DNA from: Paracoccaceae bacterium
Lineage (GTDB): Bacteria > Pseudomonadota > Alphaproteobacteria > Rhodobacterales > Rhodobacteraceae
Length of the DNA stretch: 12,784 nucleotides
NCBI GenBank assembly: GCA_026709725.1
Contig: JAPOSK010000607.1
Coordinates: 1-12,784 of the forward strand
Reading direction: 5' to 3'
The position numbers and the translations under genes were made by a program. Of the stretch, positions 1 to 12,784 are shown one piece after another (within the stretch, counting starts at the first letter, position 1; each line of letters starts with the position of its first letter). Under the pieces are notes generated by a model. That model was not told where the DNA came from, made no database searches, and worked only from the letters and a program-made list of their open reading frames with translations.

Positions 1-1181
1 AAAGTGCTGGCCGTGTTCAGGTTCATCGCCCTATCTCCTGCCTTGCTGTCGGGCTGCCAAACGGCGTAATCGGCGTAATCATCCGGCATCAGCTTCCGCA
101 GCATCCCCTCCATGTCCAGCGGGTTGATGTACTGATTGCCAAGAGTGTCAGCGGTAAACTTCTTCTTCGCCAGCATCGAAGCCTTGGCTATCTGCGCCTG
201 CCTCGCCACCGACTCGGGAATGTTTGGCTGCGTCAGCGCATCCATCAGCCGGAAAATGCTGGCCTTCGCATCGTATTCGCCCTCGGCGGCTGCGGATCGC
301 CCCGTTGCCGCGAAAGACACCATCGCCCTTTTCATTTTCGGGTCGATAACATCCAGCAGGGTGTCTTGATTGGCCTTGACCTCGGCCCGCAGGAAACTCA
401 ACGACATCCCGATGGCGCGGTTCCGGTTTTTCAGAGCGGCGTCGATCCGCGAATCCTCCATCGCCATCTTGTTCAAGCTGGATGCGTTGGATTTTTTGGC
501 CCGCATCCGAAGATCGTCGGCCAAGTTGTATTTCGACGCTTTCAGCCTCTTGAGAAGCCGCGCCGTGGCGATGTCGGTGTACGCCTTGAACATCCACTCC
601 GACTCGGCCTCGAAATAGTTAACATTGATGTCTTTCTCGGAACCCTTGCGGCCATGCCAAAATGGATTCTTCGTCTTCCCGGCCCGCGCCCTAGCCGCCA
701 TGCCCTGCGCGTACTCAAGAACCTGGTGCCGGAAGTAATTGGGGTTGCGGGCCTGCTGGCGGGTCAACACGCCGCTTGAAATCATTTCCTTCGCAACCTG
801 GTCGCGAAGTTTGTTGCGAAGGTCAACCCGCTCTTGCAAATGCGGCATTTCCGCGAGCTTCGCCTCCACGCTTCGCAAATCGGCCAATATCTTTTCCGTG
901 GCGTCCCCTTGGCTGTCGCTGGCGTAGCCAAACGGAACCTCCATGCCCTGCCCCGCAGTCCACAGCAAATCATCCAGCACCCATTTGCGGGTCATCAAAT
1001 CAATGTCTTCCTTGCCCAACCCCTTCGCGACCCTCTCAAAATCCCCCCTCACCTTTTCTTTGGCCGAGTGTTGCGATTGTGAAAGGTGGTAGGCCATTTC
1101 GTGGAACTCGGCAAATTTTTTCTTCGACCTTTTGTCGTTGGGCAAATGCTTCCAAGTGCGTGTGAACAAGCGGAAAGAGTC
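1..1181 (-). other. C-terminal conserved phage domain of the giant protein (residues ~2790-3182, incomplete)
   Basis: Helical region with NPNYFRHQVLEYA (Tyr2938 to Ala2947), then GRKGSEKDINVNYFEAESEWM. From memory, a YxRHQVLEY ... RxGS..DIN.xYxxxExE pattern recurs near the C-terminal side of very large phage proteins next to peptidase domains. No catalytic residues can be assigned. The chain continues beyond position 1. Confidence 0.6.
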
Positions 1182-4100
1182 GGTCGCGGCTTCCCGTATC
1201 CTGCCTGCGGCGGTCAAGTTCACGCCTTCCGCCGCCGACTGCCAGCGGGCCTCGCGGTCCGCGTCGTCAAATTCGACATGGCGGGAAGTTCGCCCCTTGG
1301 CCTGCGGCTGCGGCTTGCGCCTGCCAACCTTGCCGGATTCCACCGCCTCGAATATCGACCCCACGCTTGGCTGCGCCCCGTAATTGCGGAGCGAAGCCAC
1401 CATGCGGCGGAAGAAATCGGTGATCCGCTTGAAAACCCTCGTCGCAATCGCGCTGGTGGATGTCCTGTTCACCGCCCAATGGCTGTACGCCTCGGCGATG
1501 GCCTCCTCATAGGCGGTCTCATTCGGCACCGCGCCGTTGTACTCGTCGGGATACCGCTTTTGAATCTGATACGTCTTGAACCAGCCCTGCTTGTCGGCCT
1601 GCCGCTTCAATGCGCTCCATTCCTCTTTCGAGAAAAGGCCCATGCTCTTGAGCGCGTGTATCGCCTCGTGGCGCACGATGCGGCGCGGGTCGTCTGCGGT
1701 GTTCAAGGCAACCGTCAAAACCGTCTCAAGCGTCTCGGGATCAAAAGCCAGCGAGCCGGTCGCACCGCCTTGAATCGTGTCCGCTTGCCCATACGTCGCA
1801 AACGGCGCGATGCGCTCCACTATGCGGCGGGCATCCTCAAACACTTCCCGCTTGTTGTCCCGAACCAGCTTCTTGGGCGTGACGAATGGGCGGTGGTAGC
1901 TGATCTGATCCATAACATCCTTGTTGGTGTGCTTCTCCCGCACCGATTCAACCTGCTTGTTCTCCATGTAGCGGGCCAGCACCTCAATGCCCCCGCTACT
2001 GGTCGGCACAAACGCGGACCGCCTGTGATTGATGGTCTCGAATTGGAAACCCATTTTATCCATCAATCCACCAGGCGACATCATCGACTGCCTCTGCCAA
2101 GTGGATGGCGAGACTTCCAGCCGCAATTCCCCGCTAAGCAGGCGCGGCCTCAACATTGAACCATCGTTGAGCGTTGCGCTCACGGGATTTTCCATAACAT
2201 AATCGTAAAGAGCCTGCGGCGGTATCTGCGCGATTTCCATGCCGACACCAAGCCGGCGAAACAACCCTTTCAACTGGTTCCTATTCATTTCCATGCCAAG
2301 GATATTGCTTCCATCATCCATGATTACCCGCTTCACCTTTGGCAGATCGGACTTGTTGCTGCCAAGTTTTCCGTAAATCGGCAACACCGCGCCGGAAATC
2401 ATATTGATGCTGGTGTCGCCAAGCTCGCTGGTCTCCTCGTACTGTTTCTCCCACAACTCTTTGGCTTTTGCAAACTCATCAATCTCTTCCCATTTGTTAG
2501 CATCCTTCAAGTCCCATTCCATAGCATAGGATGAAGTCTTGATACTCTGCATCGAATACCTTGTGCCCATGCGACCCGTCTTGGCATCCGCGTGCTTGGC
2601 GGCAAGCGGGCGGGCCGAAAAAATGCTGCCCGATGTCTTGTTCAAATAAAACTTTTCGGCCCGCCGCACAACATCGCCGTATGCGGTTTTCTTGATGCGG
2701 CGTTTGGCGGCGATTTTCAGATACTCGGTTTCAGCCCCGCTGCGCTCTTCGACATTGATAACCTGCCGGTCGGCTATTTTCGCCTGCTCGACTTTCACGA
2801 CCTCAACGCCGGTGTCGTAAGTGCCGTCTGCAACCGCCCCCTCAATCATGTCGTTCCGGGCATCGTCGAACAAGGTGAACAAATGCCCTTGCACATCCGA
2901 TTCAAGATTCAACATCCTGTTCAAGAATTGCTTCACTTGCACATCTTCCGGCTTTGCCTTTGCCAAATCCATTCTTGACAAAACATCCGCATTGGATATG
3001 CCGGTGTCGCCGAAACGGTTTGTATCCTCGTCCTGCAATCGTTCAATAATGGCGTTTACCGCGCCCTTGCCGTATTGATCCTCAAGATTGTCGGCATCCC
3101 CAAACAAGCCGCCGGTGGTGTCTCGCTGGCCTTTGGTCAAAGCGCCAAGTTGACCCAACCGGCGGGCGATGGTGGCGACAAACCTTTTCTGCGCTGGCTG
3201 ATTGGTTTGAACCAGCTTGTAAATTGGCGCGGACGCTTGGTCGGTGCGGTGGGTGCGACCCAAAAACTGCATTGTGGTGTCCGCCGACCAACCCGGCTGC
3301 AAAACGAAGTGAACCCGTTGTCGCTTGTTCTTGAATTGGTTGCCCGCATGGTAGCCTTCCCCCGTCCCCCCGCCACGGGTGAACACCAAACCCAGCTTGT
3401 CGCCATCGCGGAAAGCGGATATTTCAGCCCGCTTCTTGCGCTGCAATCCGGTTTCCTCGTAGGTTTTGCCGTCCTTGCGGACAATGCGGGAACTGCGCCC
3501 GCTCACTTCCGCAAAATTGTCGTAACCGAAATGCTCCAAAAGCATATCCAGTGGGTTTCCAGGCAACTGGAATGCGGCAACCTCGTCAATCAACGCCTGC
3601 TTTTTCGCGACCAATGCCGGGTCTTGTATCAGTTCGCCTTTGCTGTCCGTGGCGTATTTCCAATCTATCGTCCCGCTTTCAGGGTCTCGAACAGGCTGCA
3701 TTATCGCCGTGGGGTATGAGTTCGTAATCACATTTATCAACATTTCCCTTGGCGTTATGTCTATGTCCTCCAACTGCAAATCATCATCGCCCTTGATTTT
3801 TTCAACTTGCCTTTTCTGCTCCGCTTCGTTGGTGTTGGTAAGCTGAACCACCACGGATTTCCCGTCCGCAAAATCTTTTTCAATCTCCTTGATGACGGTT
3901 GGCATCTGCATGGACGTCATCAGCAAATTGTAATAGCGCTGGTTGTCACCCCAAAATTTGCTTGCCATCGATCCTTTTGTCCGCGCCTTGTCTTTTTCCG
4001 TGGCACCCGGCATCGTTTCACCAATAGCGGCCTCAATATCGCGCATGGCTTTCTGCCAAGCATGGGCGGAAGTGTCGTACATCTGTTTCTGTTCAGGAGT

Positions 4101-7100
4101 CAGCGTGTGTTCCAGTTTTTCGTACTGGACACCATCGTAGCTAAGCGAGCGCGACGCATACACACCCATTTGCTTCAAGTCGCGGGCCACCAGTTCCATC
4201 CCCGCCGTGCCGCCGGCGGATATGGCTGAAACAAAGTTCTGCGCGTTGGCAAAATCCGTGCCTTCACCCCACAGCCCGAGTCGGTCCAAATAGCCTAGAT
4301 TTTCCGGCTCGGTGGCCGCTGTAGCGGTGGCGTAGTAAATTCGGGCGTTGGGCAATGCGTTCTGCAAAGCCAAACCCGCCTGCGCGGTGCGAGACGATTT
4401 GGTTTTCCTGCCTTGCGCCGATTCGGATTCAACCGCCATAGCGTTTTTCATTTGATGAGCTTCATCAAAAACGATCACGCCATCAAAATCTTCCCCCAAC
4501 CAATCTACAAGCAGCTTGACCCTCGGGAAATAATCCAAGTCGGTCAAGCCTTCGCGTTTTTCCTCAAGCGCCTGCTTTTCCTGAGCGGTCAGCCTGCCCG
4601 CAAGCTGCGAATACATGGAAAACACGATGCCTTCGTTGTTTTTCGCAATCTTCGTCCATTGCGCTTTGGTGGTGGCCGGAATCACATTCGCGTCTTTCCA
4701 GCCCACTCCCTCAAAATCGTCTTTGGACGAATGGATTAAATTCTTGCTGATCGAAAACCAAACGGCTTTTTTTCTGCCTTGCTGGTAATTATCGTAGATC
4801 GTGGCGACAATCGAGCGGCCCTTCCCGCTTCCAGTCCCGTCCCCGTCGATGAATCCCTTGCGCTTGACGCCTCCTTGAATCATTTGGCTGTGGGAATGGC
4901 CGGCAAGCACAACCTTTTCAAGCTGCGCTCCCGATATGCCGCCGCTCGAAATAACCTCTTCTGGTATTGAAGGGGCATAGTTGATTGTCGATGGATAGTT
5001 GACCGTCCCCATCGTCGCGGATTCCACCAAAATGCCGGGGTGCGGCTGCGCCTTGGCATGGGTTCCGACCGTGGGCCGGTAGGAAGCGAATTTGTCTTCT
5101 TCCCCGATTTTGGCGGCTTCGACTACGGCAGACGGTGACTCCATAGCGAGCTTATCAGGTCTTGCTCGCTTACCTCCTCCATCAGGTGATCCTTGGGCAC
5201 TTCTCCTTCCCCCCACAGAATTTCGGTCAGCGTCGCCAGATACGTCCCCGCCCGGATCGCCATCGCGAGGTCCGCCAGCGACTGTTCCACGCTTTCCCCG
5301 TCCTTCGGATTCGCCAGAAGATTCTGCGCGTTTTCCACCGCCCACGTTAGAACTGGCGGGGTGTTGAACGCCGCCTCCTTGCTCCGCAGTTTCCCCGGAT
5401 TCCCCATCTTGTTCCAGTACTGTTGTTCCACCTTCATCAGGTGCCACGGGTCTTGTTTCATTTCTTGTTTCTCCTCTGCTTTCCCGCACCGGCTCCATCG
5501 CTTTGATGAAGTCGGGCAGATTGTCGAATCGGCCTTCGACGATTGGCTCGTGCTTGGGCAGAACGCCCGTAGCCAGAGCCTTCGCTCCGGCCTCCGCGTC
5601 CAAGACAATCGTGGTGACTCCGGTTTGCTCGTGCGTCACCTTGTCCCAGACGGTCACATTGTTGTCGAAGGTGGTGCCGTACTTCCGGTACAGCTTGCTT
5701 CCGTCCATGCCCACCACGGCCCGGATCGTGCCTTCCTTCTTCATCGCGCTGGAAACGACACCGGGCTTGCGGACATCGAATGACGGGCCGGAAATGATTA
5801 CCAGCCGGCCACCGGGCGCGACCATCTTCATCGCGGCCAGCACATGGGCTTCAGTCACCCTGCCTTGCTTGACCAAACCCCGAGCGCCCTCGTTGCTAAA
5901 TGGCGGATTCATCACCACAACGTCAAACGATTCCCGTGCCTCGGATTTGATCGCGGGCAGATGGTTCGCGTCCTCGTTCCAAACGCTCTCTCCCCCGAAC
6001 ATTCTGCCGAGAACGTCCAAGCGGTCTTTCTCGATCTCGTTGACGGTGACATTGCCGCCCATTTGACGGGCCATGACAGCCAAGCCGCCAGCGCCGGCGC
6101 TTGGCTCAAGGACTTGATCCCCTTCGCCCACCCCCGCCGCCCAATTCACCGCCATCGCGTAGCCTGGGGGGGTCGAAAACTGCTGGTAAGCAATCTTCTT
6201 GTCCGTGCGCCGTGTCTGCGTCGGCAGCAACTTGTGGGTGTCATCCAAATCTTGGGCAACTTCCAACGCTCTTGCCGAGTCCATTTCGATCATGTTCTGC
6301 ATCGCGGCGTACTGGTTCATGGCAAGCTCGCCAATGTTGTACGCTTGCTGCGGATCGAATGCTCCTTCCCCAACCGTTCCGCCAAAGGCTTCCTCCGCCA
6401 TCTTGAAAAATGACGGATTGTCCATAGCCCGCTTGCTGCTCAAGTTCGCAAGAATATCAAAAGAGAAATCGCCAACCGGATCGCCTGGCTTCTGCTCCGG
6501 TTCCGGCTCCGGCTCGACGGTGGCATCTTCAACAACGTCCGATGTATCGCCGAACTCGGCATCGGTCGCTTCTTCTTCAATATCCGTGATGTCCTCTTGC
6601 CCCTGCTGGACAGACTCAACGTCTGTGCCATCGCCAGCGATGAAATTCATTAAGGATTTCAGGCTTCCGCTTCCAGCCCGGATATAACGCCTGGCATCGG
6701 TTTTGACGTTTTCAGGAAGAGCGCGGAACTCGTCTGTTTCCATAAAATCCAAGATTCTTTCGTGGACTTCATCGTATTCCATGTCGGCTTCGTCAACGGC
6801 GTCCAGCTCGTTGATGAGCAAATCCAGTTGAGCCGCTGTTCGCAAACGCTCTTTGGCTTCTTCTTCCCCATAATTGCCGCGATAATTCTGCTCGGCAAGC
6901 CGGTAAACTTCCCTTGCTTTTTCAATATCTTCTTGCTGCCTTGCTATGTTGTATTTCTGCATTAGAGATTCAGGCTGGCTGCTCGAAGCCTCAATGGTTG
7001 CAAAGGCAGCATCCAATATCTCATTCGCTTTCACGCGATCATGTATTTTTCTTCTATCTTCGTTTTCCCTCTCAATTTCCTTTGGGCTTTTATCGGGTAT

Positions 7101-9548
7101 GATTGCTGAAGGGTCTTCACCATAGTACTCCGGTGCCATTTTCAGCACTTCTTCGGCAACTTTTTTCGATACTCCATATTGGCCAGAAATAATTTCCGCC
7201 GCTGTATTAAAATCATCTTTGAATTGCCTGGCAATTCCAACAATGTTGTTTTTCAATGTCCGCTTGGATTCTTGGTCGATTTCCCATCTTTCAAAAAACC
7301 ACTTCGCTTTCTGTTTATTAGTCCTGAAATCGGTTTTTATTTTGCCGTCACGATCCCTCCAATTACCGGCAGTTTCAGGAGTCCATCCCTTTGGTGGAGT
7401 GCCAAGTATATCTATCTTTGGCGTATCATCAAGCTCTGCATCCCCCTCTGCTTCCGGTTCAGGTTCAGGCTCGGTGACAGCATCCGGTTTCGGCTTAACC
7501 GGAGTTTGCGGGGAATCCACAAGGGCTTGAATGGCTTCGGGGTTGTTCGCCGTGTCGGTCGCGTCCTTTAGAACGCTGTCTTTCTTGCTGCCGGTCGAAA
7601 ACACCTTGCCGGTCGGCTTGTGCGTCGCCGTGAAAAGCTGCGTGTCATCGCTCCAAGTAACTTCGATGTCTTCCCCAATCGACACGGGGGAACGCTCTTT
7701 GGCGACCCGCTCCTCTTCCGCCTTCGCCTCGGCGTCGGCCTTGTCTTTGGCCTCCTGTTCCTTTTGACGTGTCGCCTCGGCCTCTTGATCGGCTATCCTT
7801 TTCTCGCCGTCGCGGATGATTTCGTCAATCACGTTGCGAGACTGCTCGGGGTACTGCGTCCACTCCTTGCTGTTCCGCAGTTTCTTCATTGCCTCAAGCG
7901 ATTGCGGGTCTTCATTCTCGACCCAGCTATTCATCAAACGGGCGAACTCAAGGGAATAGGTTTCCATTTCCGCCGATGGCTTTTCCTCCTTGACGTTGTA
8001 CACCAGCGGATTTTCGGCCAGCCCGCCCTCGTCGTCGCGAACCGTGCCTATCAAGTTCCCCTCTTCGTCGAAAACGCGGGCCAACCCGCCTTCCATCTTG
8101 ACGGTGCCTTGCGCCGAAGGGGTGTTGCCGTAATCGACCTCCACCCTCTGCCCGTCCACCAAGTCGCCGGGGTTGAGCAACTGCCGCTTGCCTTTCGCGG
8201 CCAACGCTTCAAGGTTCAGCGAGGATTGATCGCGGTCGGCGGCATCCATGTTGATGATGTTCGAGCCGGATGTCCCCGGCTCGGCGGCGGGCTGCTGCTG
8301 TTGCGGCGTGTCTGCCTGTGTCGTTGTTTCGACGCCATCACCGCCAGTGTCCGGTGGGGTCGGGGTAGGTTCGGGCTGTGTGGGCGCGGCATCTTCCGGC
8401 GGCTTGTCCGAATCGTCTTTCATCTTCCGGCGGCGGCTGATTTCCTCTGCCGCCGTGGTTGGTGTGCTGATCGCGCCGCCCGCCAAAGCGCCGGTCACGC
8501 CGCCTTGAAGCGAGCCTTGCAGCAACTGTGCGGCAATCTCTTGGGTGGGCTTGCCTTTCCACGCTTCCGTGCCGGCGCTCGCGCCCACCTGCTCGATAGG
8601 CTCTTGAATCGCCTCGGTCGCGCCCTCGATGGCCGACCGGCGGGCCAAAGCTCCGCCAACCCGCTTGGCAACCCCTTTGGCTCCCTCTCCGGCAACAGGT
8701 TCGGCCAGCTTGTCCGTGAGACCGAACACCTTGCTCGCGCCAATCCGCTCAAGACCCGCGCTTGCCACAGCCGCTGGAAGCGCCGCGAAAAAATCGCCCA
8801 CGTCCGCATCGTCGCGCAGCTCGTTTTCCGCCCTCTCCCCCGCAATCTCGCCGGCGCGGGCCGCAGCATAGCCTGGAAGGTTGGCAACCGCCGCCACCAT
8901 GTCGGGCAGGGAAACCACGCCTTCCTCAAGCGCGTATGGCAGGAAGTTCTTTAGGGGGGATTCCAGCAACTCTTCCCACGAGGTGTACCGCTCCTGCTCG
9001 TACTTGCCCTCATGCTCCCGCAGCTTTTTGCCCAATGGCCCCGCGCCCTCGATTATGGCGCGGCCCAAGGGGTTGCTGTAGGCGGCGGCGAACTCGCGGG
9101 ATTGCGTGGCCCGCTGATCCCTTTCCGCAGATGAACGGGTGACGGCTTCACGCTGTTCCGCATCGCGGACAGGCTGCCCGCCAGCGTGTTGCCCGTACCC
9201 CGCCGTGGGGGTGGGCTGGAAAGCGTAGCCGAGCCAGTCAATCGCGGAATCCACCGCCTCGGATGCGCCGCCGGCGAGCTTGGTGGCGCGGTCGGCAACA
9301 CGGCTGCCGACAATCTGCGCCGCGTTGGGCTGCTCATCCCGCCACTCAATCAACCCCGACCGCTGGTCGAAGTCATCCCGCTCCATGTAGTTCGCGTATT
9401 TCTCGTTGTAGAGAATGTCCGCAAGCTCTTCCAAATCCTTTTTGTCTCTTTCACCCGTGCGCTGGGCAAACTCCTCGAATGGCATCCCCATCTGGGGTCC
9501 ATAGTGGTGGTAAAACGATTCGAGAAATGTTTTCGGCAGGGAAAACAA
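1..9548 (-). CDS. Giant phage polyvalent protein: DNA methyltransferase + Strawberry-notch/DarB-like helicase + zincin metallopeptidase (partial, at least 3182 aa)
   Basis: One frame stays open from the TTG at 9548 to the left edge, with no stop seen. Domain order by residue: 1-200 helical; ~205-365 Ala/Gly-rich hydrophobic; ~365-440 Pro/Thr/Gln linker; ~450-515 small beta domain; ~583-620 charged coiled coil; ~700-1010 low-GC helical module between two EPEPEPE linkers; ~1080-1360 N6-adenine methyltransferase (VLEPSAGAGG, NPPF); 1363-1474 Gly/Ser linker; ~1480-2240 SF2 helicase (GDGTGSGKGR, DEAH, GRTHRTDQ); ~2330-2400 helicase-associated region; ~2560-2740 zincin (HEAIH); ~2790 onward conserved C-terminal domain. 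Methyltransferase plus Strawberry-notch helicase is the architecture of P1 DarB, a virion protein that protects ejected DNA from type I restriction. Such fusions with peptidases are known as phage polyvalent proteins. Virion location and antirestriction are inferred from that and from the upstream genes. The C-terminus is missing. Confidence 0.9.
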   Translation of the reverse strand, partial: MFSLPKTFLESFYHHYGPQMGMPFEEFAQRTGERDKKDLEELADILYNEKYANYMERDDFDQRSGLIEWRDEQPNAAQIVGSRVADRATKLAGGASEAVDSAIDWLGYAFQPTPTAGYGQHAGGQPVRDAEQREAVTRSSAERDQRATQSREFAAAYSNPLGRAIIEGAGPLGKKLREHEGKYEQERYTSWEELLESPLKNFLPYALEEGVVSLPDMVAAVANLPGYAAARAGEIAGERAENELRDDADVGDFFAALPAAVASAGLERIGASKVFGLTDKLAEPVAGEGAKGVAKRVGGALARRSAIEGATEAIQEPIEQVGASAGTEAWKGKPTQEIAAQLLQGSLQGGVTGALAGGAISTPTTAAEEISRRRKMKDDSDKPPEDAAPTQPEPTPTPPDTGGDGVETTTQADTPQQQQPAAEPGTSGSNIINMDAADRDQSSLNLEALAAKGKRQLLNPGDLVDGQRVEVDYGNTPSAQGTVKMEGGLARVFDEEGNLIGTVRDDEGGLAENPLVYNVKEEKPSAEMETYSLEFARLMNSWVENEDPQSLEAMKKLRNSKEWTQYPEQSRNVIDEIIRDGEKRIADQEAEATRQKEQEAKDKADAEAKAEEERVAKERSPVSIGEDIEVTWSDDTQLFTATHKPTGKVFSTGSKKDSVLKDATDTANNPEAIQALVDSPQTPVKPKPDAVTEPEPEPEAEGDAELDDTPKIDILGTPPKGWTPETAGNWRDRDGKIKTDFRTNKQKAKWFFERWEIDQESKRTLKNNIVGIARQFKDDFNTAAEIISGQYGVSKKVAEEVLKMAPEYYGEDPSAIIPDKSPKEIERENEDRRKIHDRVKANEILDAAFATIEASSSQPESLMQKYNIARQQEDIEKAREVYRLAEQNYRGNYGEEEAKERLRTAAQLDLLINELDAVDEADMEYDEVHERILDFMETDEFRALPENVKTDARRYIRAGSGSLKSLMNFIAGDGTDVESVQQGQEDITDIEEEATDAEFGDTSDVVEDATVEPEPEPEQKPGDPVGDFSFDILANLSSKRAMDNPSFFKMAEEAFGGTVGEGAFDPQQAYNIGELAMNQYAAMQNMIEMDSARALEVAQDLDDTHKLLPTQTRRTDKKIAYQQFSTPPGYAMAVNWAAGVGEGDQVLEPSAGAGGLAVMARQMGGNVTVNEIEKDRLDVLGRMFGGESVWNEDANHLPAIKSEARESFDVVVMNPPFSNEGARGLVKQGRVTEAHVLAAMKMVAPGGRLVIISGPSFDVRKPGVVSSAMKKEGTIRAVVGMDGSKLYRKYGTTFDNNVTVWDKVTHEQTGVTTIVLDAEAGAKALATGVLPKHEPIVEGRFDNLPDFIKAMEPVRESRGETRNETRPVAPDEGGTTVLEQDGESGETAEQGGGVQHPASSNVGGGKRAESSGESEGRGKRGTVAGGPRDGDPGGDVSGDADRNSVGGRRSAQGSPDGGGKRARPDKLAMESPSAVVEAAKIGEEDKFASYRPTVGTHAKAQPHPGILVESATMGTVNYPSTINYAPSIPEEVISSGGISGAQLEKVVLAGHSHSQMIQGGVKRKGFIDGDGTGSGKGRSIVATIYDNYQQGRKKAVWFSISKNLIHSSKDDFEGVGWKDANVIPATTKAQWTKIAKNNEGIVFSMYSQLAGRLTAQEKQALEEKREGLTDLDYFPRVKLLVDWLGEDFDGVIVFDEAHQMKNAMAVESESAQGRKTKSSRTAQAGLALQNALPNARIYYATATAATEPENLGYLDRLGLWGEGTDFANAQNFVSAISAGGTAGMELVARDLKQMGVYASRSLSYDGVQYEKLEHTLTPEQKQMYDTSAHAWQKAMRDIEAAIGETMPGATEKDKARTKGSMASKFWGDNQRYYNLLMTSMQMPTVIKEIEKDFADGKSVVVQLTNTNEAEQKRQVEKIKGDDDLQLEDIDITPREMLINVITNSYPTAIMQPVRDPESGTIDWKYATDSKGELIQDPALVAKKQALIDEVAAFQLPGNPLDMLLEHFGYDNFAEVSGRSSRIVRKDGKTYEETGLQRKKRAEISAFRDGDKLGLVFTRGGGTGEGYHAGNQFKNKRQRVHFVLQPGWSADTTMQFLGRTHRTDQASAPIYKLVQTNQPAQKRFVATIARRLGQLGALTKGQRDTTGGLFGDADNLEDQYGKGAVNAIIERLQDEDTNRFGDTGISNADVLSRMDLAKAKPEDVQVKQFLNRMLNLESDVQGHLFTLFDDARNDMIEGAVADGTYDTGVEVVKVEQAKIADRQVINVEERSGAETEYLKIAAKRRIKKTAYGDVVRRAEKFYLNKTSGSIFSARPLAAKHADAKTGRMGTRYSMQSIKTSSYAMEWDLKDANKWEEIDEFAKAKELWEKQYEETSELGDTSINMISGAVLPIYGKLGSNKSDLPKVKRVIMDDGSNILGMEMNRNQLKGLFRRLGVGMEIAQIPPQALYDYVMENPVSATLNDGSMLRPRLLSGELRLEVSPSTWQRQSMMSPGGLMDKMGFQFETINHRRSAFVPTSSGGIEVLARYMENKQVESVREKHTNKDVMDQISYHRPFVTPKKLVRDNKREVFEDARRIVERIAPFATYGQADTIQGGATGSLAFDPETLETVLTVALNTADDPRRIVRHEAIHALKSMGLFSKEEWSALKRQADKQGWFKTYQIQKRYPDEYNGAVPNETAYEEAIAEAYSHWAVNRTSTSAIATRVFKRITDFFRRMVASLRNYGAQPSVGSIFEAVESGKVGRRKPQPQAKGRTSRHVEFDDADREARWQSAAEGVNLTAAGRIREAATDSFRLFTRTWKHLPNDKRSKKKFAEFHEMAYHLSQSQHSAKEKVRGDFERVAKGLGKEDIDLMTRKWVLDDLLWTAGQGMEVPFGYASDSQGDATEKILADLRSVEAKLAEMPHLQERVDLRNKLRDQVAKEMISSGVLTRQQARNPNYFRHQVLEYAQGMAARARAGKTKNPFWHGRKGSEKDINVNYFEAESEWMFKAYTDIATARLLKRLKASKYNLADDLRMRAKKSNASSLNKMAMEDSRIDAALKNRNRAIGMSLSFLRAEVKANQDTLLDVIDPKMKRAMVSFAATGRSAAAEGEYDAKASIFRLMDALTQPNIPESVARQAQIAKASMLAKKKFTADTLGNQYINPLDMEGMLRKLMPDDYADYAVWQPDSKAGDRAMNLNTAST
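1329..1871 (-). other. Zincin metallopeptidase domain of the giant protein (residues ~2560-2740)
   Basis: RHEAIHALKSMGLFSKEEW contains HEAIH (2627-2631), the HExxH zinc motif with catalytic Glu2628. The third ligand is probably a Glu in YEEAIAEAYSHW (2681-2686). The spacing of about 50-55 residues and the GLF..EEW context match the peptidase domains found inside phage polyvalent proteins. The substrate is unknown; self-cleavage between modules or cleavage of a host protein are both possible. Confidence 0.8.
2829..5111 (-). other. Strawberry-notch/DarB-type SF2 helicase domain of the giant protein (residues ~1480-2240)
   Basis: Walker A is GDGTGSGKGR (1569-1578; Lys1576), the GxGTGxGKGR form typical of the Strawberry-notch group. 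Walker B is VIVFDEAHQMKNA (DEAH 1695-1698). Motif III region is YYATATAATEPENLGYL (from 1738), then RLGLWG. Later come FAEVSGRSSRIV, FVLQPGWSADTTMQFLGRTHRTDQ (motif VI, GRTHRTDQ 2097-2104) and the group-specific FLNRMLNLESDVQGHLFTLF (2208-2227). All ATPase residues are intact. The likely activity is ATP-driven DNA translocation or remodelling next to the methylase. Confidence 0.9.
5123..5461 (-). CDS. Embedded (overprinted) gene in the +1 frame of the giant gene, unknown function (112 aa)
   Basis: A complete gene inside the giant gene. It starts at an ATG preceded by AGAGGAG with a 9-nt spacer and ends at TAG, 5125-5123. The protein starts MKQDPWHLMKVEQQYWNKMG and looks globular: four Trp, well-mixed charges, and helices such as LTWAVENAQNLL and VEQSLADLAMAIRAGTYLATLTEILW. 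No signal peptide, membrane segment or known motif is seen. About 84 of 112 codons end in G or C, against about 43 of 112 in the giant frame over the same DNA, which there encodes a low-complexity Gly/Ser/Asp/Arg linker. Codon use thus follows the embedded frame. The frame is also open upstream to 5608, but that part is Arg/Ser/Cys-rich shadow sequence, so the ATG at 5461 is chosen. Family not recognised. It may act with, or regulate, the giant protein (speculation). Confidence 0.75.
   Translation of the reverse strand: MKQDPWHLMKVEQQYWNKMGNPGKLRSKEAAFNTPPVLTWAVENAQNLLANPKDGESVEQSLADLAMAIRAGTYLATLTEILWGEGEVPKDHLMEEVSEQDLISSLWSHRLP
5469..6311 (-). other. N6-adenine DNA methyltransferase domain of the giant protein (residues ~1080-1360)
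   Basis: Motifs in order: IAYQQFSTPPGYA (about residue 1120), a substrate-side motif typical of phage and plasmid DarB-like methylases; motif I VLEPSAGAGG (1146-1155) for S-adenosylmethionine; VNEIEKDRLDVL after motif I; catalytic motif IV VVMNPPFS with NPPF at 1214-1217, the amino-methyltransferase signature; then GGRLVIISG and TTFDNNVTVWDK. All key residues are present, so the domain should be active. The target sequence cannot be read from it. Confidence 0.9.
5471..5477 (-). promoter_or_regulatory. Internal Shine-Dalgarno of the embedded 112-aa gene
   Basis: AGAGGAG on the mRNA strand lies inside the giant gene, 9 nt before the ATG at 5461. In the giant frame these bases fall in codons for Ser-Arg-Gly-Glu of the linker. 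It is as good as the sites of the stand-alone genes and is the main sequence argument for independent translation. Confidence 0.7.
6495..6515 (-). other. Acidic EPEPEPE linker 2 (residues 1012-1018)
   Basis: A second Glu-Pro alternation, followed by QKPGDPVGD, lies just before the region leading into the methyltransferase domain. Together with linker 1 it brackets about 312 residues of different base composition. Confidence 0.7.
7452..7472 (-). other. Acidic EPEPEPE linker 1 (residues 693-699)
   Basis: A Glu-Pro alternation followed by an acidic run (AEGDAELDD) marks a flexible linker at the N-terminal edge of the low-GC module. A second copy lies at residues 1012-1018. Confidence 0.7.
8454..8936 (-). 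other. N-terminal hydrophobic/amphipathic region of the giant protein (residues ~205-365)
   Basis: Ala/Gly-rich helices (LPDMVAAVANLPGYAAARAG, FFAALPAAVASAGLERIGAS) lead into ATEAIQEPIEQ and then a Gly-spaced segment (GSLQGGVTGALAGGAIS). Similar stretches occur near the start of large ejected phage proteins. They could pack as a glycine zipper or cross a membrane during ejection. This is inference from composition; no catalytic motif is present. Confidence 0.5.
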
Positions 9549-9553
9549 GGGAA

Positions 9554-9559
9554 CCCCCT
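9554..9559 (-). promoter_or_regulatory. Ribosome binding site that sets a TTG start for the giant gene
   Basis: AGGGGG begins inside the TAG stop of the 354-aa gene and is followed by a 5-nt spacer and TTG at 9548-9546. The first in-frame ATG codons are residues 20 and 22 and lack an equally good site. Residues 2-19 from the TTG (FSLPKTFLESFYHHYGPQ) look like genuine coding sequence, so the TTG is preferred. Confidence 0.55.
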
Positions 9560-10622
9560 ATGGCTCGTCGGCTCCAAGCCATGCGGGAAGCGCTGTCCTG
9601 CGAACCGTGCCGCCTCCGCCTCCGCCTCCGCTGCGGGCAAGCGGATCGTCTCCGGGCAACTGCGGCCCACCCGTGAAGCTGCCGAGGTCAAGTTCCCTGC
9701 CGTTGAACATCATCTTTCCGGTAGGCCCGTTCTCGTCAAAACCTTCGGTGATATGCTGGTTCAATCTGGGGTCAAGCAAAATCATCCAGTCCTCGACCCT
9801 GCCGCCAAACTCGGCTTGCCGGGATCGGGCCTGCTCATCGTGCGTCATGCCTTGGGCTTCGCCATCCGCCCTCATCATGGCGATTTTTTCGCGGGATTCC
9901 CTGTCACGCTGGTTCTGGTCCGCGTCGAAAGCCCTCTGCGTTTCCGCTTCGACGGCTTCCGCCTCGCGGTCGGCAGCCGCTTCTCCGGCTGCGGCCCCCA
10001 ACTCTTTCATCCGCGCATCCAAGGCCCGCTGATCCTTGTAGATGTTAACGCCGTCCATGAAATGGCGGTTGCGGGTCAGGTCGGCCATCAAAGCCTGATC
10101 TGAAAAGTCGGGCGGCTGGCCGTTCATCGCGCCGCCGGCAAAAGCGCCGAAACTTGAAATCGCCATTTCCTGGGTCGCCGGATCGCTCATAAAGCGCTCC
10201 ATGTCTTCCACATACTTTTGCGCCCGCTGTTCAGGCGGCAGCGACATCAGGGATTCCCGCCAAGCCATTTCAAATTGGCTTTGCCGGGTCAGCTTTTCCC
10301 AAGACCTGTCCTGCTCGTCTTTCCTCATTTGGCCGACTTGCGCCTGCGTTGAAAGCCACTGGTTGGCGAACTCAGGGCCTGCCACGGTCATCAAGGCTTG
10401 CACGTCCCGCTCATCCGGCAGGCTGCTGGTGTTCTTGCCCATCCGCGCCAGGATGCGGGAAACTTCGCGGTTGCGCCGCTTCTCTTCCCGCCGCTCGCGC
10501 ATGGAGTCGCCAATCTCGCGCCCCAAAGCGTAGCCCTGCCCGAGATCGCTCGCGACGGTCGATGGCTGGCCGAAAACCATGCCGGATGGCGCGGTGGGGG
10601 CTGTTGTGAATGGAATCGGCAT
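9558..10622 (-). CDS. Probable internal virion protein, helical and coiled-coil (354 aa)
   Basis: The ATG directly follows the TAG of the 598-aa gene (zero spacing), with AGGGG 9 nt upstream at 10632-10636, so translation is probably coupled. Residues 1-30 are rich in Thr, Pro, Ser and Gly. Residues ~35-70 are strongly basic and helical (RERREEKRRNREVSRILARMG). Residues ~195-260 form an Ala/Glu/Arg/Asp-rich coiled coil. The C-terminus carries a run of seven glycines (residues 332-338, encoded by GGA GGC repeats at about 9610-9630) before a short tail ending PAWLGADEP. No enzyme motif, signal peptide or membrane helix is visible. I do not recognise a named family. Its place between a DNA-transfer-type protein and a giant polyvalent protein suggests a second ejected virion protein; a tail or capsid accessory role is possible. 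Confidence 0.85.
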   Translation of the reverse strand: MPIPFTTAPTAPSGMVFGQPSTVASDLGQGYALGREIGDSMRERREEKRRNREVSRILARMGKNTSSLPDERDVQALMTVAGPEFANQWLSTQAQVGQMRKDEQDRSWEKLTRQSQFEMAWRESLMSLPPEQRAQKYVEDMERFMSDPATQEMAISSFGAFAGGAMNGQPPDFSDQALMADLTRNRHFMDGVNIYKDQRALDARMKELGAAAGEAAADREAEAVEAETQRAFDADQNQRDRESREKIAMMRADGEAQGMTHDEQARSRQAEFGGRVEDWMILLDPRLNQHITEGFDENGPTGKMMFNGRELDLGSFTGGPQLPGDDPLARSGGGGGGGTVRRTALPAWLGADEP

Positions 10623-12419
10623 CTAAATCCACCCCTGCCCTTGCATGAACCCAAAAATGCTTCCGAGTATTTGGAAATCCATTGATTGCTGCTGGCTTTG
10701 CATACCCAGGAAAGTGTTGACCCCGCCAGCCCTCGCGTTGGCCGCGCCTATCGCGCTGGCTCCGGTGGCCTCGTGGATGTACTTCGCCTCGCCCGCTTCG
10801 GCCATGTTCGCCATTCCAATAACCTGGTTGGAGCTTTCCGCACCCCACTGGCCCACGCCGGTCCAGAATTGGCCGAGGTTCGACATGAACTCCCTGCGCT
10901 GGGCCGCAAACTGCTCGTTCTGCGCGTTCAAAATCGATTGCGCCCAGCCGCCGATTTGGAAACTGCGGTCAACCTGCGCCTCGACATTGTTCACATTCTG
11001 CGCCCAAGTCTCGCGGTTGGTCATAAAATCCTGCAACTGCCGGTCGGCGTTCTGGTTAAAGGTCTCGCGGTTGGTCACGTAGTCCTGCAACTGCCGGTCG
11101 GCGTTGATCTGCTCGGTGTCGCGGTTGGTCAAATAGTCCTGCAACGCGACGTCCTGATTGCGGATGTCGGTGTCGCGGTTGAAGCCGGCGTCGCGGAAAT
11201 CCAAATCCTGATCGCGCATCTGCGACTCGCGATTCAAGCGGAACTCCCGCTCGGTCAAATCCTGATCGCGCATCTGCGATTCGCGGTTGAAGGCGTCGGT
11301 TCGGAACTGGTTGTTGATGTTGGACTGATCCGTGTCGCGGTTGGTCACGTAGTCCTGCAACTGCGTGTCCTGATTCCGCATATCGGTCTGCCGGTCGAAT
11401 GTCTGCTGCCGGTAGCGGTTGTCCTGATCGCGCATTTCCGATTGCCGGTTGAAGGCGTCGGTTCGGTAGCGGTTGTCCTGATCGCGCATCTGCGAGTCGC
11501 GGTCAAACGCCTGCAACCTGAAATTGTCGTCCTGCTCGCGGAATCGGTTTTCGCGGTTGGTGCGGTACTGCATCATGGCGCGGTTGTAGGCGTTCTCATA
11601 CTCTTGGGAAGCCAACCCTTGGCCGTGCTTCATCAATGCCTTGTAGGTGGCCCCCATTCGCGCCCCGCTGCCGGCGTTGGCGGCGCGGCGGATAGCCTTC
11701 TCGCCCTCGGACAAGCGGAACTGGTAGCCTTGGTCGCTCTCAAGCAGGTTCCGGTCAACATTGCCGCCGGTTGCAAAATCCTCGTAGCTTTTGTGGCGCA
11801 GGCTGCCGCGCATGGTCTTGTCGTCGTACCCCCGCGTCGATGTCGGGCCTTCCACGTGGGCGCGGTTGGTGAGCGGATCGCGGCCAGCGAATCCGGCCAG
11901 CTTGGGGTCGTTCCCCCGCGTCGCGGTTCGCCCGCCGTGTCCACCGAATGACATGGTGGGATCACGCTCGGAGAGGTAGCTCCCAAGCTCCCCCCTGCCG
12001 CCAAACATCCCGGAAGCACCCCGATTCTCCATCGGGGCGTATCCCTCGCGGTTGATTTCCTCATCGAAGGTGAGGCCCACGCCCGCGTCTTTGAGGGCGT
12101 TGTTCTGCCAGCCGGTCGCGGCTTCCAAGTAGTAGCGCAGATCGTTTTCACTGGTAACCGGATTGGTTCCGGGATTCAGGGATGGGTCGGTGAGGATAGC
12201 CTTGCCAAGGTCGGCGGCGCCGCCAGCCACCGCGTTGATGTTCGCCAAGCCCGCGTCTTTGGTTTGGCGGTGCAGGTCGATGGCTTTTTCGCCGCCAATA
12301 ATGGCGTGTTCGCGGGCAATGTCATTCGCCTTCGCGATGCCTTCGTGGGCTTCATAAGCCAAAGCCGGGTCGGGCTGGTCGATGCCAAGCCACTTGTCGG
12401 CCAATTTTCCTGCGGACAT
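10623..12419 (-). CDS. Internal virion / DNA-transfer-type protein with eleven 18-residue repeats (598 aa)
   Basis: Probable virion protein ejected with the DNA. Residues 1-228 are Gly/Asp/Arg-rich. Residues 229-287 carry DQGYQFR, then EG..A..RAANAGSGARMG, then KHGQGLASQEYENAYNR. This pattern (DPGYxFR..EG..A ... G..ASxEYxNAYNR) recurs in many phage proteins annotated as DNA transfer or ejection proteins. Residues 288-485 are eleven tandem 18-residue units (consensus NR[DE][ST]xxRDQDxxxRxxxF) predicting one long helix. Residues 486-598 are amphipathic, rich in Gly, Ala, Gln and Trp, and end FGFMQGQGWI. The ATG is fixed by AGGAGG 6 nt upstream. The TAG is followed immediately by the ATG of the next gene (TAGATG), so the two products are probably made together, like the successive internal virion proteins of T7-like phages. 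Family assignment is from motif memory; function is inferred. Confidence 0.85.
   Translation of the reverse strand: MSAGKLADKWLGIDQPDPALAYEAHEGIAKANDIAREHAIIGGEKAIDLHRQTKDAGLANINAVAGGAADLGKAILTDPSLNPGTNPVTSENDLRYYLEAATGWQNNALKDAGVGLTFDEEINREGYAPMENRGASGMFGGRGELGSYLSERDPTMSFGGHGGRTATRGNDPKLAGFAGRDPLTNRAHVEGPTSTRGYDDKTMRGSLRHKSYEDFATGGNVDRNLLESDQGYQFRLSEGEKAIRRAANAGSGARMGATYKALMKHGQGLASQEYENAYNRAMMQYRTNRENRFREQDDNFRLQAFDRDSQMRDQDNRYRTDAFNRQSEMRDQDNRYRQQTFDRQTDMRNQDTQLQDYVTNRDTDQSNINNQFRTDAFNRESQMRDQDLTEREFRLNRESQMRDQDLDFRDAGFNRDTDIRNQDVALQDYLTNRDTEQINADRQLQDYVTNRETFNQNADRQLQDFMTNRETWAQNVNNVEAQVDRSFQIGGWAQSILNAQNEQFAAQRREFMSNLGQFWTGVGQWGAESSNQVIGMANMAEAGEAKYIHEATGASAIGAANARAGGVNTFLGMQSQQQSMDFQILGSIFGFMQGQGWI
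10632..10636 (-). promoter_or_regulatory. Ribosome binding site of the 354-aa gene
   Basis: AGGGG lies within the last codons of the 598-aa gene, 9 nt before the ATG at 10622. With the TAGATG junction it implies re-initiation by ribosomes that finish the upstream gene. Confidence 0.5.
10965..11558 (-). repeat. Eleven tandem 54-bp (18-codon) repeats inside the 598-aa gene
   Basis: The units are in frame and all exactly 18 codons. Examples are DRDSQMRDQDNRYRTDAF, NRESQMRDQDLTEREFRL, NRDTDIRNQDVALQDYLT and NRETFNQNADRQLQDFMT. Stretches of near-identical DNA recur on the plus strand, such as the tcgcggttggtcacgtagtc element (near 11068 and 11336) and the cctgatcgcgcatctgcga element. Units at the two ends (from 11558 and near 10965) are the most diverged. 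No indel breaks the 54-bp period. Eighteen residues equal five helical turns (18/5 = 3.6) and can be read as heptad plus hendecad. Confidence 0.9.
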
Positions 12420-12425
12420 TTGCCA

Positions 12426-12431
12426 CCTCCT
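12426..12431 (-). promoter_or_regulatory. Shine-Dalgarno of the 598-aa gene
   Basis: A perfect AGGAGG with a 6-nt spacer before the ATG at 12419, in the 23-nt gap between two genes. It is the strongest ribosome binding site in the window, consistent with a protein needed in quantity. Confidence 0.8.
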
Positions 12432-12442
12432 GCCCGAATAGT

Positions 12443-12688
12443 TTAGGGGTTGCCAGCGTTTTCTGCAATAACGAGCCGGTATCGTTTGACCTCCGCGCCT
12501 TCCCCGTCAAGGATGCGGATGTCCGCTGTTCCCGCCGAAATGCAAAAGACGCGGGAACCCATGTCGTGGCCTTGCGTTATCTCGATGCAGCCGGAAGAGC
12601 CGATTTCCTCAAGCCGCCCGTTTCTAGCCGCCGGGAAGTAAAGCGGATGGCCGGTTGGAGCGTTCAACATTATTCTGGTTTCCGTCAT
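12443..12688 (-). CDS. Small beta-rich phage protein of unknown function (81 aa)
   Basis: This is a complete 81-residue reading frame. It starts with ATG overlapping the stop of the preceding gene (ATGA) and is preceded by GGGGGA with a 6-nt spacer (12695-12700). The sequence alternates short hydrophobic and polar runs (HPLYFPAARNG, GCIEITQG, RVFCISAGTADIRILD, VKRYRLVI), as expected of a small beta-sandwich or barrel. There are two cysteines, no signal peptide and no membrane segment. The next gene begins 23 nt downstream with its own strong ribosome binding site. I do not recognise the family. A small capsid, neck or decoration protein would fit the neighbourhood, but nothing in the sequence proves it. 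Confidence 0.75.
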   Translation of the reverse strand: MTETRIMLNAPTGHPLYFPAARNGRLEEIGSSGCIEITQGHDMGSRVFCISAGTADIRILDGEGAEVKRYRLVIAENAGNP

Positions 12689-12784
12689 TTGTTTTCCCCC
12701 GTGCCGGCGGTGATGGAAGCCCGCCGGCTGGAACTTCTGCCGCCGTCGGCGTAGTTGTACCAGATTTCAACTGTAACCCTTGCG
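12685..12784 (-). CDS. C-terminal end of an unidentified phage protein (partial)
   Basis: The gene enters from the right edge. Its last 32 codons are visible and end ...VTVEIWYNYADGG...ITAGTGENK, then TGA at 12687-12685. The TGA overlaps the ATG of the next gene as ATGA, a classic translational-coupling junction. Third-position GC is about 22 of 32 codons in this frame, against about 14 of 31 in the competing open frame, which runs on to a stop at 12624 and would overlap the next gene by about 60 nt. The visible part has a beta-strand-like stretch followed by a Ser/Arg/Gly-rich tail. The family cannot be recognised from so short a piece. Its position suggests a virion gene, which is inference. 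Confidence 0.5.
   Translation of the reverse strand, partial: ARVTVEIWYNYADGGRSSSRRASITAGTGENK
12695..12700 (-). promoter_or_regulatory. Ribosome binding site of the 81-aa gene
   Basis: On the mRNA strand GGGGGA lies 6 nt before the ATG at 12688. It sits inside the last codons of the upstream gene, so the two genes are translationally coupled. Confidence 0.5.

Follow-up and report, generated by a model that had tools for sequence, protein, structure and literature searches.

A probable hidden gene in the +1 frame of the methylase-helicase linker of giant phage genes

Can DNA that already reads as the linker of a giant phage protein also hold a complete gene of its own? The question is raised by a 12,784-base stretch from a Paracoccaceae bacterium (assembly GCA_026709725.1, contig JAPOSK010000607.1), hereafter the window, which is bases 1-12784 of one contig in a 634-contig assembly. 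A giant gene of the minus strand encodes a methyltransferase domain followed by a strawberry-notch-type helicase, and the first-pass annotation had proposed that an overlooked protein gene lies between these modules in another frame. The +1 ORFs of relatives, their start signal and the constraint on the nested frame support this reading. We consider it probable, at close to nine in ten, that the phage methylase/strawberry-notch-helicase giant carries a genuine protein-coding gene within its +1 frame. For the family the case is built from sequence, i.e., position, start signal, homology, selection and the predicted fold of one member; for the divergent copy in the window we infer it from the same position, the start signal, codon usage and one close homologue. 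The features of the window are as follows.

3..9548, minus strand: giant host gene, 3182 codons read, running off the window end (database copy P0004)
5787..6116, minus strand: methyltransferase domain PF05175, giant residues 1145-1254 (E 1.4e-5; PHROG DNA methyltransferases)
5471..5477, minus strand: Shine-Dalgarno (SD) sequence AGAGGAG of the candidate nested gene, overlapping residues R-G-E-T-R-N of the giant frame, where the methylase module ends
5145..5471, minus strand: giant-frame linker, residues 1360-1468, low complexity, read as the out-of-frame reading of the candidate nested gene
5123..5461, minus strand: candidate nested gene CDS, 112 codons, ATG 5461-5459, stop 5125-5123, in frame +1 relative to the giant gene
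4071..5045, minus strand: N-terminal part of the strawberry-notch-type helicase, PF13872, residues 1502-1826 (E 4.2e-97)
2802..3557, minus strand: strawberry-notch helicase C-terminal domain, PF13871, residues 1998-2249 (E 2.7e-64)

Upstream of the giant, a 598-aa protein (10623-12419, minus) partly matches PHROG 598, which bears the label DNA ejection (E 1.2e-9), as would suit a virion or ejection module. No Pfam or PHROG family matched its 354-aa neighbour at 9558-10622. A second SD-led ORF in an alternative frame is located inside the C-terminal part of the giant (148-597, minus, GTG start, 149 aa, +2 frame); ORFs like it were non-recurrent in our comparison of alternative-frame ORFs.

The entire nested CDS falls within the giant frame (9548..3) in the shifted +1 frame, and nine bases separate AGAGGAG from its ATG. 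The complete 112-codon +1 gene with its own AGAGGAG/ATG start, as first described, was confirmed at 5461-5123 of the minus strand. Across its bases GC3 is 0.75 in the nested frame vs. 0.38 in the giant frame, in agreement with the roughly 75% and 38% given before, and the giant frame is indeed of low complexity there, being rich in Gly, Arg, Glu, Ser and Asp. A CAI-like fit to the giant gene's own codon usage is better in the nested frame (0.73) than in the giant frame (0.47). The predicted protein has 112 aa, a pI of 4.95 and no Cys.

The open frame and the composition of the window are, by themselves, insufficient evidence for a gene. A GC-rich linker rich in Gly, Arg and Glu seldom yields stops in the +1 frame, so a non-functional frame can stay open by chance, and in the window alone the openness of the +1 frame was non-significant (P 0.13-0.70). 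Permutation of the synonymous codons of the window linker left a fully open +1 frame in 13% of the shuffles (n=400); with codons drawn from the usage of the giant's flanking regions the share was 70%. The signal beyond chance comes from the relatives.

Relatives were reached only through alignments of the giant. Two word-based searches of 5.8 billion proteins gave three homologues; P0003, a 115-aa protein from a gammaproteobacterial MAG, is 63% identical to the window's nested protein over 98%. There were no matches with the window protein against viral contigs, with P0003 against phages, with the two aligned against genome contigs and viral contigs, or with single pieces of the giant against viral contigs. 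The sole match in 61 near genomes, 385 genomes from the class and 390 from the order was the window's own. The near absence of the family from databases is most simply explained by annotation rules that forbid nested genes. An alignment of twelve giants matched 146 IMG/VR loci, of which the best 80 were taken. Loci lacking a methyltransferase or helicase match were left out (2 in this first scan, both for want of the methylase match, and 12 in the wider census below). All 78 of the viral loci with both modules, among these best 80 of 146, contain a +1 ORF at the same place in the linker, each assignable with a start codon where the methylase module ends, once four starts (L029, L033, L035, L067) had been changed by hand. 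The first-pass annotation had named a broken +1 frame over a conserved linker as the result that would count against a gene, and these loci show the opposite. Wider sampling did include some relatives without the nested ORF, mostly with short linkers. With two plasmids and the window, the first set comprises 81 ORFs, 76 of them distinct, of 87-145 codons. The nested ORF is thus a recurrent feature of strawberry-notch-type methylase-helicase giants and not the isolated oddity it had first seemed.

Summed over 76 loci, with a floor of 1/400 per locus, the log10 probabilities that the +1 frame is open come to -74 under permutation and -63 under codon usage. The reverse test, of the giant frame being open given the nested codons, gives -74 and -149; all these sums ignore kinship among loci. 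For giants known as protein only, a back-translation test gave z-scores of 9.2 (P0005), 5.5 (P0007) and 0.6-3.4 (nine others), with 30.8 for the window's own P0004. These scores were set aside because homology in the giant frame alone could produce them. Among 8000 sequences scored, 5905 reach E<=1e-10, and among the matches listed, the window's own included, all 120 giants have a linker of 76-288 residues at the methylase-helicase junction, so the nested gene may be more frequent than in the loci for which DNA is available.

The nested ORFs form a family that can be recognized by sequence. In cross-validation, each 40%-identity cluster was tested with profiles from whose training all its sequences had been left out. 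Of the 81 nested ORFs, 69 were found at E<1e-3; the set searched comprised 14,049 six-frame ORFs, and the top non-nested one scored E 0.18. The family motif is NxxPLNxxA ... LQLxxWGLE. The same giants carry many other long SD-led ORFs in alternative frames, as a chance origin would lead one to expect: of 244 such ORFs of at least 90 codons in 147 giants, the nested gene accounts for 119. The remaining 125 fail to recur, however, each matching at most five others.

The window ORF was not recovered by the family profile at E<1 in cross-validation, nor were those of eight loci with the same layout (L010, L025, L039, L050, L061, L075, L076, L082), and a profile-profile comparison (hhalign) of the window/P0003 pair with the family gave a probability of 6%. 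The window copy is a divergent, positional member, placed by its position, frame, start signal and codon usage; sequence similarity to the family is undetectable. One family member (L054) is predicted with confidence to adopt a helical fold (pLDDT 89.9, pTM 0.84). The model of the window protein is poor (pLDDT 64.2, pTM 0.48), and has a helix order similar to that of L054, but it was predicted on a family alignment. The family is acidic (median pI 4.8, D+E 15.2%, K+R 9.8%) and nearly devoid of Cys (0.3%).

The start signal is shared as well. ATG is the start codon in 73 of the 76 distinct genes and GTG in three. A Shine-Dalgarno-like tetramer lies within -15..-4 in 72/76, and an SD is present in 132/136 nested genes of the wider set, counts that are partly by construction since the start rule prefers or requires an SD. 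Starts set by the profile alone, with three hits of late profile start and one lacking a start codon excluded, have an SD in 47/52 and ATG in 48/52 at loci outside the training set, and an SD in 55/66 at training-set loci. Two controls were used. The methylase and helicase modules contain 807 further +1 ATGs, 109 of them with an SD; under the SD-favouring rule, an SD is present in 179 of 539 other +1 stretches of at least 90 codons in the giants (89 more have no start). Across the family the signal overlaps giant-frame residues (L)EGVRNDR or similar. Ribosomes would start the nested gene independently at its own Shine-Dalgarno/ATG, which overlaps the codons of the methylase end, and nested translation would end before the helicase module.

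Since the nested ORF is in the +1 frame, it might instead be entered by programmed frameshifting, which would yield a methylase-plus-tail protein and no separate small protein. In 63 of 136 genes no +1 stop occurs within 10 codons before the start, in line with such entry. There is, however, a +1 stop within 3 codons upstream in 29/136 and within 10 codons in 73/136 (15/76 and 43/76 in the first set), which excludes frameshift entry in many, not all, nested genes. With the SD and ATG found at profile-placed starts, these stops make a frameshift product highly improbable.

Amino-acid constraint in the family sits in the nested frame, and the giant's linker is unconstrained. A position-rate test used 26 close pairs from 21 loci, chosen from 101 candidates for their identity, coverage and frame. 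In these pairs the differences at giant positions 1/2/3 are 0.158/0.122/0.305 for the methylase and 0.157/0.114/0.315 for the helicase, and the order is inverted in the linker (0.270/0.224/0.191). Giant position 3 is slowest in the linker in 16 of the 26 pairs (not slowest in 10) and position 1 is fastest in 21; conservation is higher in the nested protein than in the giant's in 24 pairs, and equal or higher in the giant's in 2. A looser nucleotide set of 1946 candidate pairs, with linker differences of 0.35/0.36/0.36, is uninformative in the linker because distant linkers align at random. Sorted by effect in the giant and the nested frame, in that order, the rates are 0.137 (NN), 0.284 (NS) and 0.120 (SN) in 22 pairs. 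For these 22 pairs, which share no locus, dN/dS in the overlap is 0.48 in the nested frame (bootstrap 0.39-0.58) and 1.14 in the giant frame (bootstrap 1.00-1.30), by simple counts with kappa fixed at 2 and multiple hits uncorrected; these pairs are family relatives with DNA, and the window's own copy lies outside them. This is the reverse of constraint in the giant frame only, which had been named at the outset as evidence against a nested gene. The giant linker seems constrained merely to remain open. Read through the same bases, the giant frame would give an open, unconstrained, disordered-looking linker whose residues are dictated by the small gene.

Homologues, the start signal, a cross-validated family, inverted position rates and purifying selection on the nested frame leave a chance ORF with next to no probability. 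The relatives reject chance for the family; the window alone does not.

We examined 208 loci for the distribution of the nested gene (80+32 viral, 15 plasmid/phage, 80 genome and the window; profile trained on 81). The nested ORF was detected by profile in 126 and by position in 20; 49 had none, 12 were incomplete and 1 was interrupted by a masked run. Among non-training loci, profile detection was obtained in 2/10 complete plasmid, 15/25 complete IMG/VR and 35/80 genome loci. The plasmid records analysed were twelve of 40 listed. Record titles of carriers include Methylococcales, Chromatiaceae, Nitrosomonas, Magnetococcales, Desulfo-type bacteria, Clostridia, Treponema, Porphyromonadaceae and Acidobacteria. 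Profile-detected ORFs also span viral contigs and records assigned to Pseudomonadota, Bacillota and Bacteroidota, with Planctomycetota added by position. Cultured carriers include Methylotuvimicrobium alcaliphilum 20Z, with the nested gene at 105156-105497 (minus) of plasmid NC_016108, and M. buryatense 5G (L144). Since many carrier records are MAGs, a phage may have been binned there together with its host.

Presence of the nested gene goes with linker length and, mostly, with protein size. The median linker has 33 residues where the gene is absent (n=24) vs. 122 (n=103) and 108 (n=19) in the two classes with a nested ORF, and the median protein 1438 aa (n=22 complete) vs. 3809 (n=76) and 3871 (n=15). 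Loci without the gene are mostly a compact form in Sphingomonad and other alphaproteobacterial records, and sixteen of them, mostly of compact type, make up one clade in a FastTree tree (unrooted; 104 of 147 non-redundant giants). Positional ORFs are interspersed on this tree with profile-detected ones, e.g., in the Clostridia rows, for which fast divergence is a simple explanation. Size has its exceptions. Planctomycete giants at five loci (L159, L161, L186, L188, L197), of 1507-1630 aa, carry positional ORFs of 113-125 aa that fall below detection by the family profile at E<1e-3; the giants of profile-detected L086, L136, L152 and L154 have only 1311-1691 aa; and L107, L110, L112, L117 and L177, without the gene, reach 2957-4811 aa (two are cut). 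The linkers of L107, L112 and L177 run to some 270-370 residues. Here the +1 frame of L112 and L177 is fragmented, as though a different insert had taken the place of the nested gene, and in L107 a 115-codon open +1 stretch persists without an SD-led start.

In P1 DarB, Pseudoalteromonas phage Y3 and Vibrio phage D171 we did not find an SD-led +1 ORF of at least 80 codons after the methylase; further on in P1 darB, two +1 stretches of 177 and 128 codons are open but lack an SD. The cultured Bacteroides phage BS-TP4 has a 119-codon +1 ORF directly after the methylase module (L090:4791-5147, plus strand), without an SD. Its match to the family profile is not significant (E 0.039), and it has a weak local match to the C-terminus of the window protein.

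How the overlap arose can be read in two ways. The small gene may once have stood alone between separate methylase and helicase genes, whose fusion then read through it out of frame. We give this capture somewhat less than an even chance. It is in keeping with the nested frame being the constrained one and usually the better fit to the gene's codon usage (111 of 136 genes), and with the mostly short linkers of relatives without the nested gene (33 vs. 122). Against it, no relative with three separate genes occurs among the loci read, and the tree of giants is unrooted. The second reading is overprinting of an old long linker, with the small gene as the newcomer, which the reviewed trend for hydrophobic residues to be enriched in +1 de novo frames (PMC8227390) suits just as well.

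What might the nested protein do? An acidic helical protein sharing its message with a methylase-helicase of the class whose archetype, DarB, sits in the P1 virion head suggests a dedicated partner, and we tentatively propose, by analogy, that the small acidic, helical product serves the giant as partner or chaperone, a role that is possible rather than probable. Its acidity favours this, as does the fact that nested genes accompany long linkers and mostly large proteins. Made from the same mRNA, the nested product might keep the methylase-helicase soluble, inactive or competent for packaging or transfer until this giant is delivered along with the DNA. It could otherwise be an independent counter-defence protein, e.g., an acidic restriction-enzyme inhibitor, or a regulator. 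The acidic family (median pI 4.8) and a host gene of antirestriction type, the DarB class in the part of the source available (PMC5512222), are in line with such a role, but the acidity is moderate, and no ORF outside the linker in the loci searched gave a full-profile match below E 0.6, so that presence of the nested gene tracks the linker of this one giant gene. We regard an independent role as rather unlikely.

If the partner reading is taken further, the low-complexity linker of about 100 residues seen across several bacterial phyla in polyvalent proteins of phages and plasmids might be the out-of-frame shadow of a hidden gene for a conserved, folded partner required for holding or delivering the giant, a proposal that we put forward with less than even confidence. 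If true, one stretch of DNA would supply both a chaperone and the inter-domain linker of the chaperone's client. Where the embedded gene rather than the host frame bears the constraint, a protein linker would evolve as a by-product, and the polyvalent methylase-helicase proteins would gain a dedicated partner that can be tested in cultured organisms.

The giant of the window has the domain order of the DarB-class methylase-helicase dyad as described in the available text of Iyer et al. (2017). In this class of polyvalent proteins an adenine-methylase-like domain is followed by a SWI2/SNF2-type ATPase, a strawberry-notch form is named, and DarB, the archetype, forms part of the head of the P1 virion (PMC5512222, available text). 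That text of the defining polyvalent-protein paper makes no mention of a hidden nested gene: "overlapping" and "linker" are absent, and "nested" and "embedded" appear in other senses only (PMC5512222). The first-pass annotation knew of no description of a nested gene in a DarB-like gene, and we found none in the open-access literature, most subscription papers lying outside that scope. Nested genes are a known kind; what appears to be new is a conserved, putatively folded family hidden in a methylase-helicase linker, with the host frame unconstrained.

The closest precedent in layout is Rz1/Rz of the phage lambda spanins, where, according to the part of the source available, the complete Rz1 gene is embedded in the +1 frame of its partner gene Rz and the products act as one complex; gene callers often overlook such embedded genes (PMC6139136). 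Rz1 acts in lysis as an outer-membrane lipoprotein, whereas the nested family is helical, to judge from the predicted fold, and nearly free of Cys, and the window protein, with no Cys, lacks the lipoprotein signal of an Rz1-type o-spanin. Unlike Rz1/Rz, the giant methylase/helicase host frame is unconstrained in the overlap. For function the comparison is with VirE1, which is encoded by a separate gene. VirE1 is a small acidic chaperone expressed with the DNA-binding VirE2, which is delivered to the recipient cell and aggregates without VirE1, and it contributes a single helix to the complex, as far as the available text goes (PMC5389803). The comparison concerns only how the two may work. The likeness to VirE1 is that of a small (87-145 aa), acidic protein encoded together with the giant, with the giant assumed to be the cargo.
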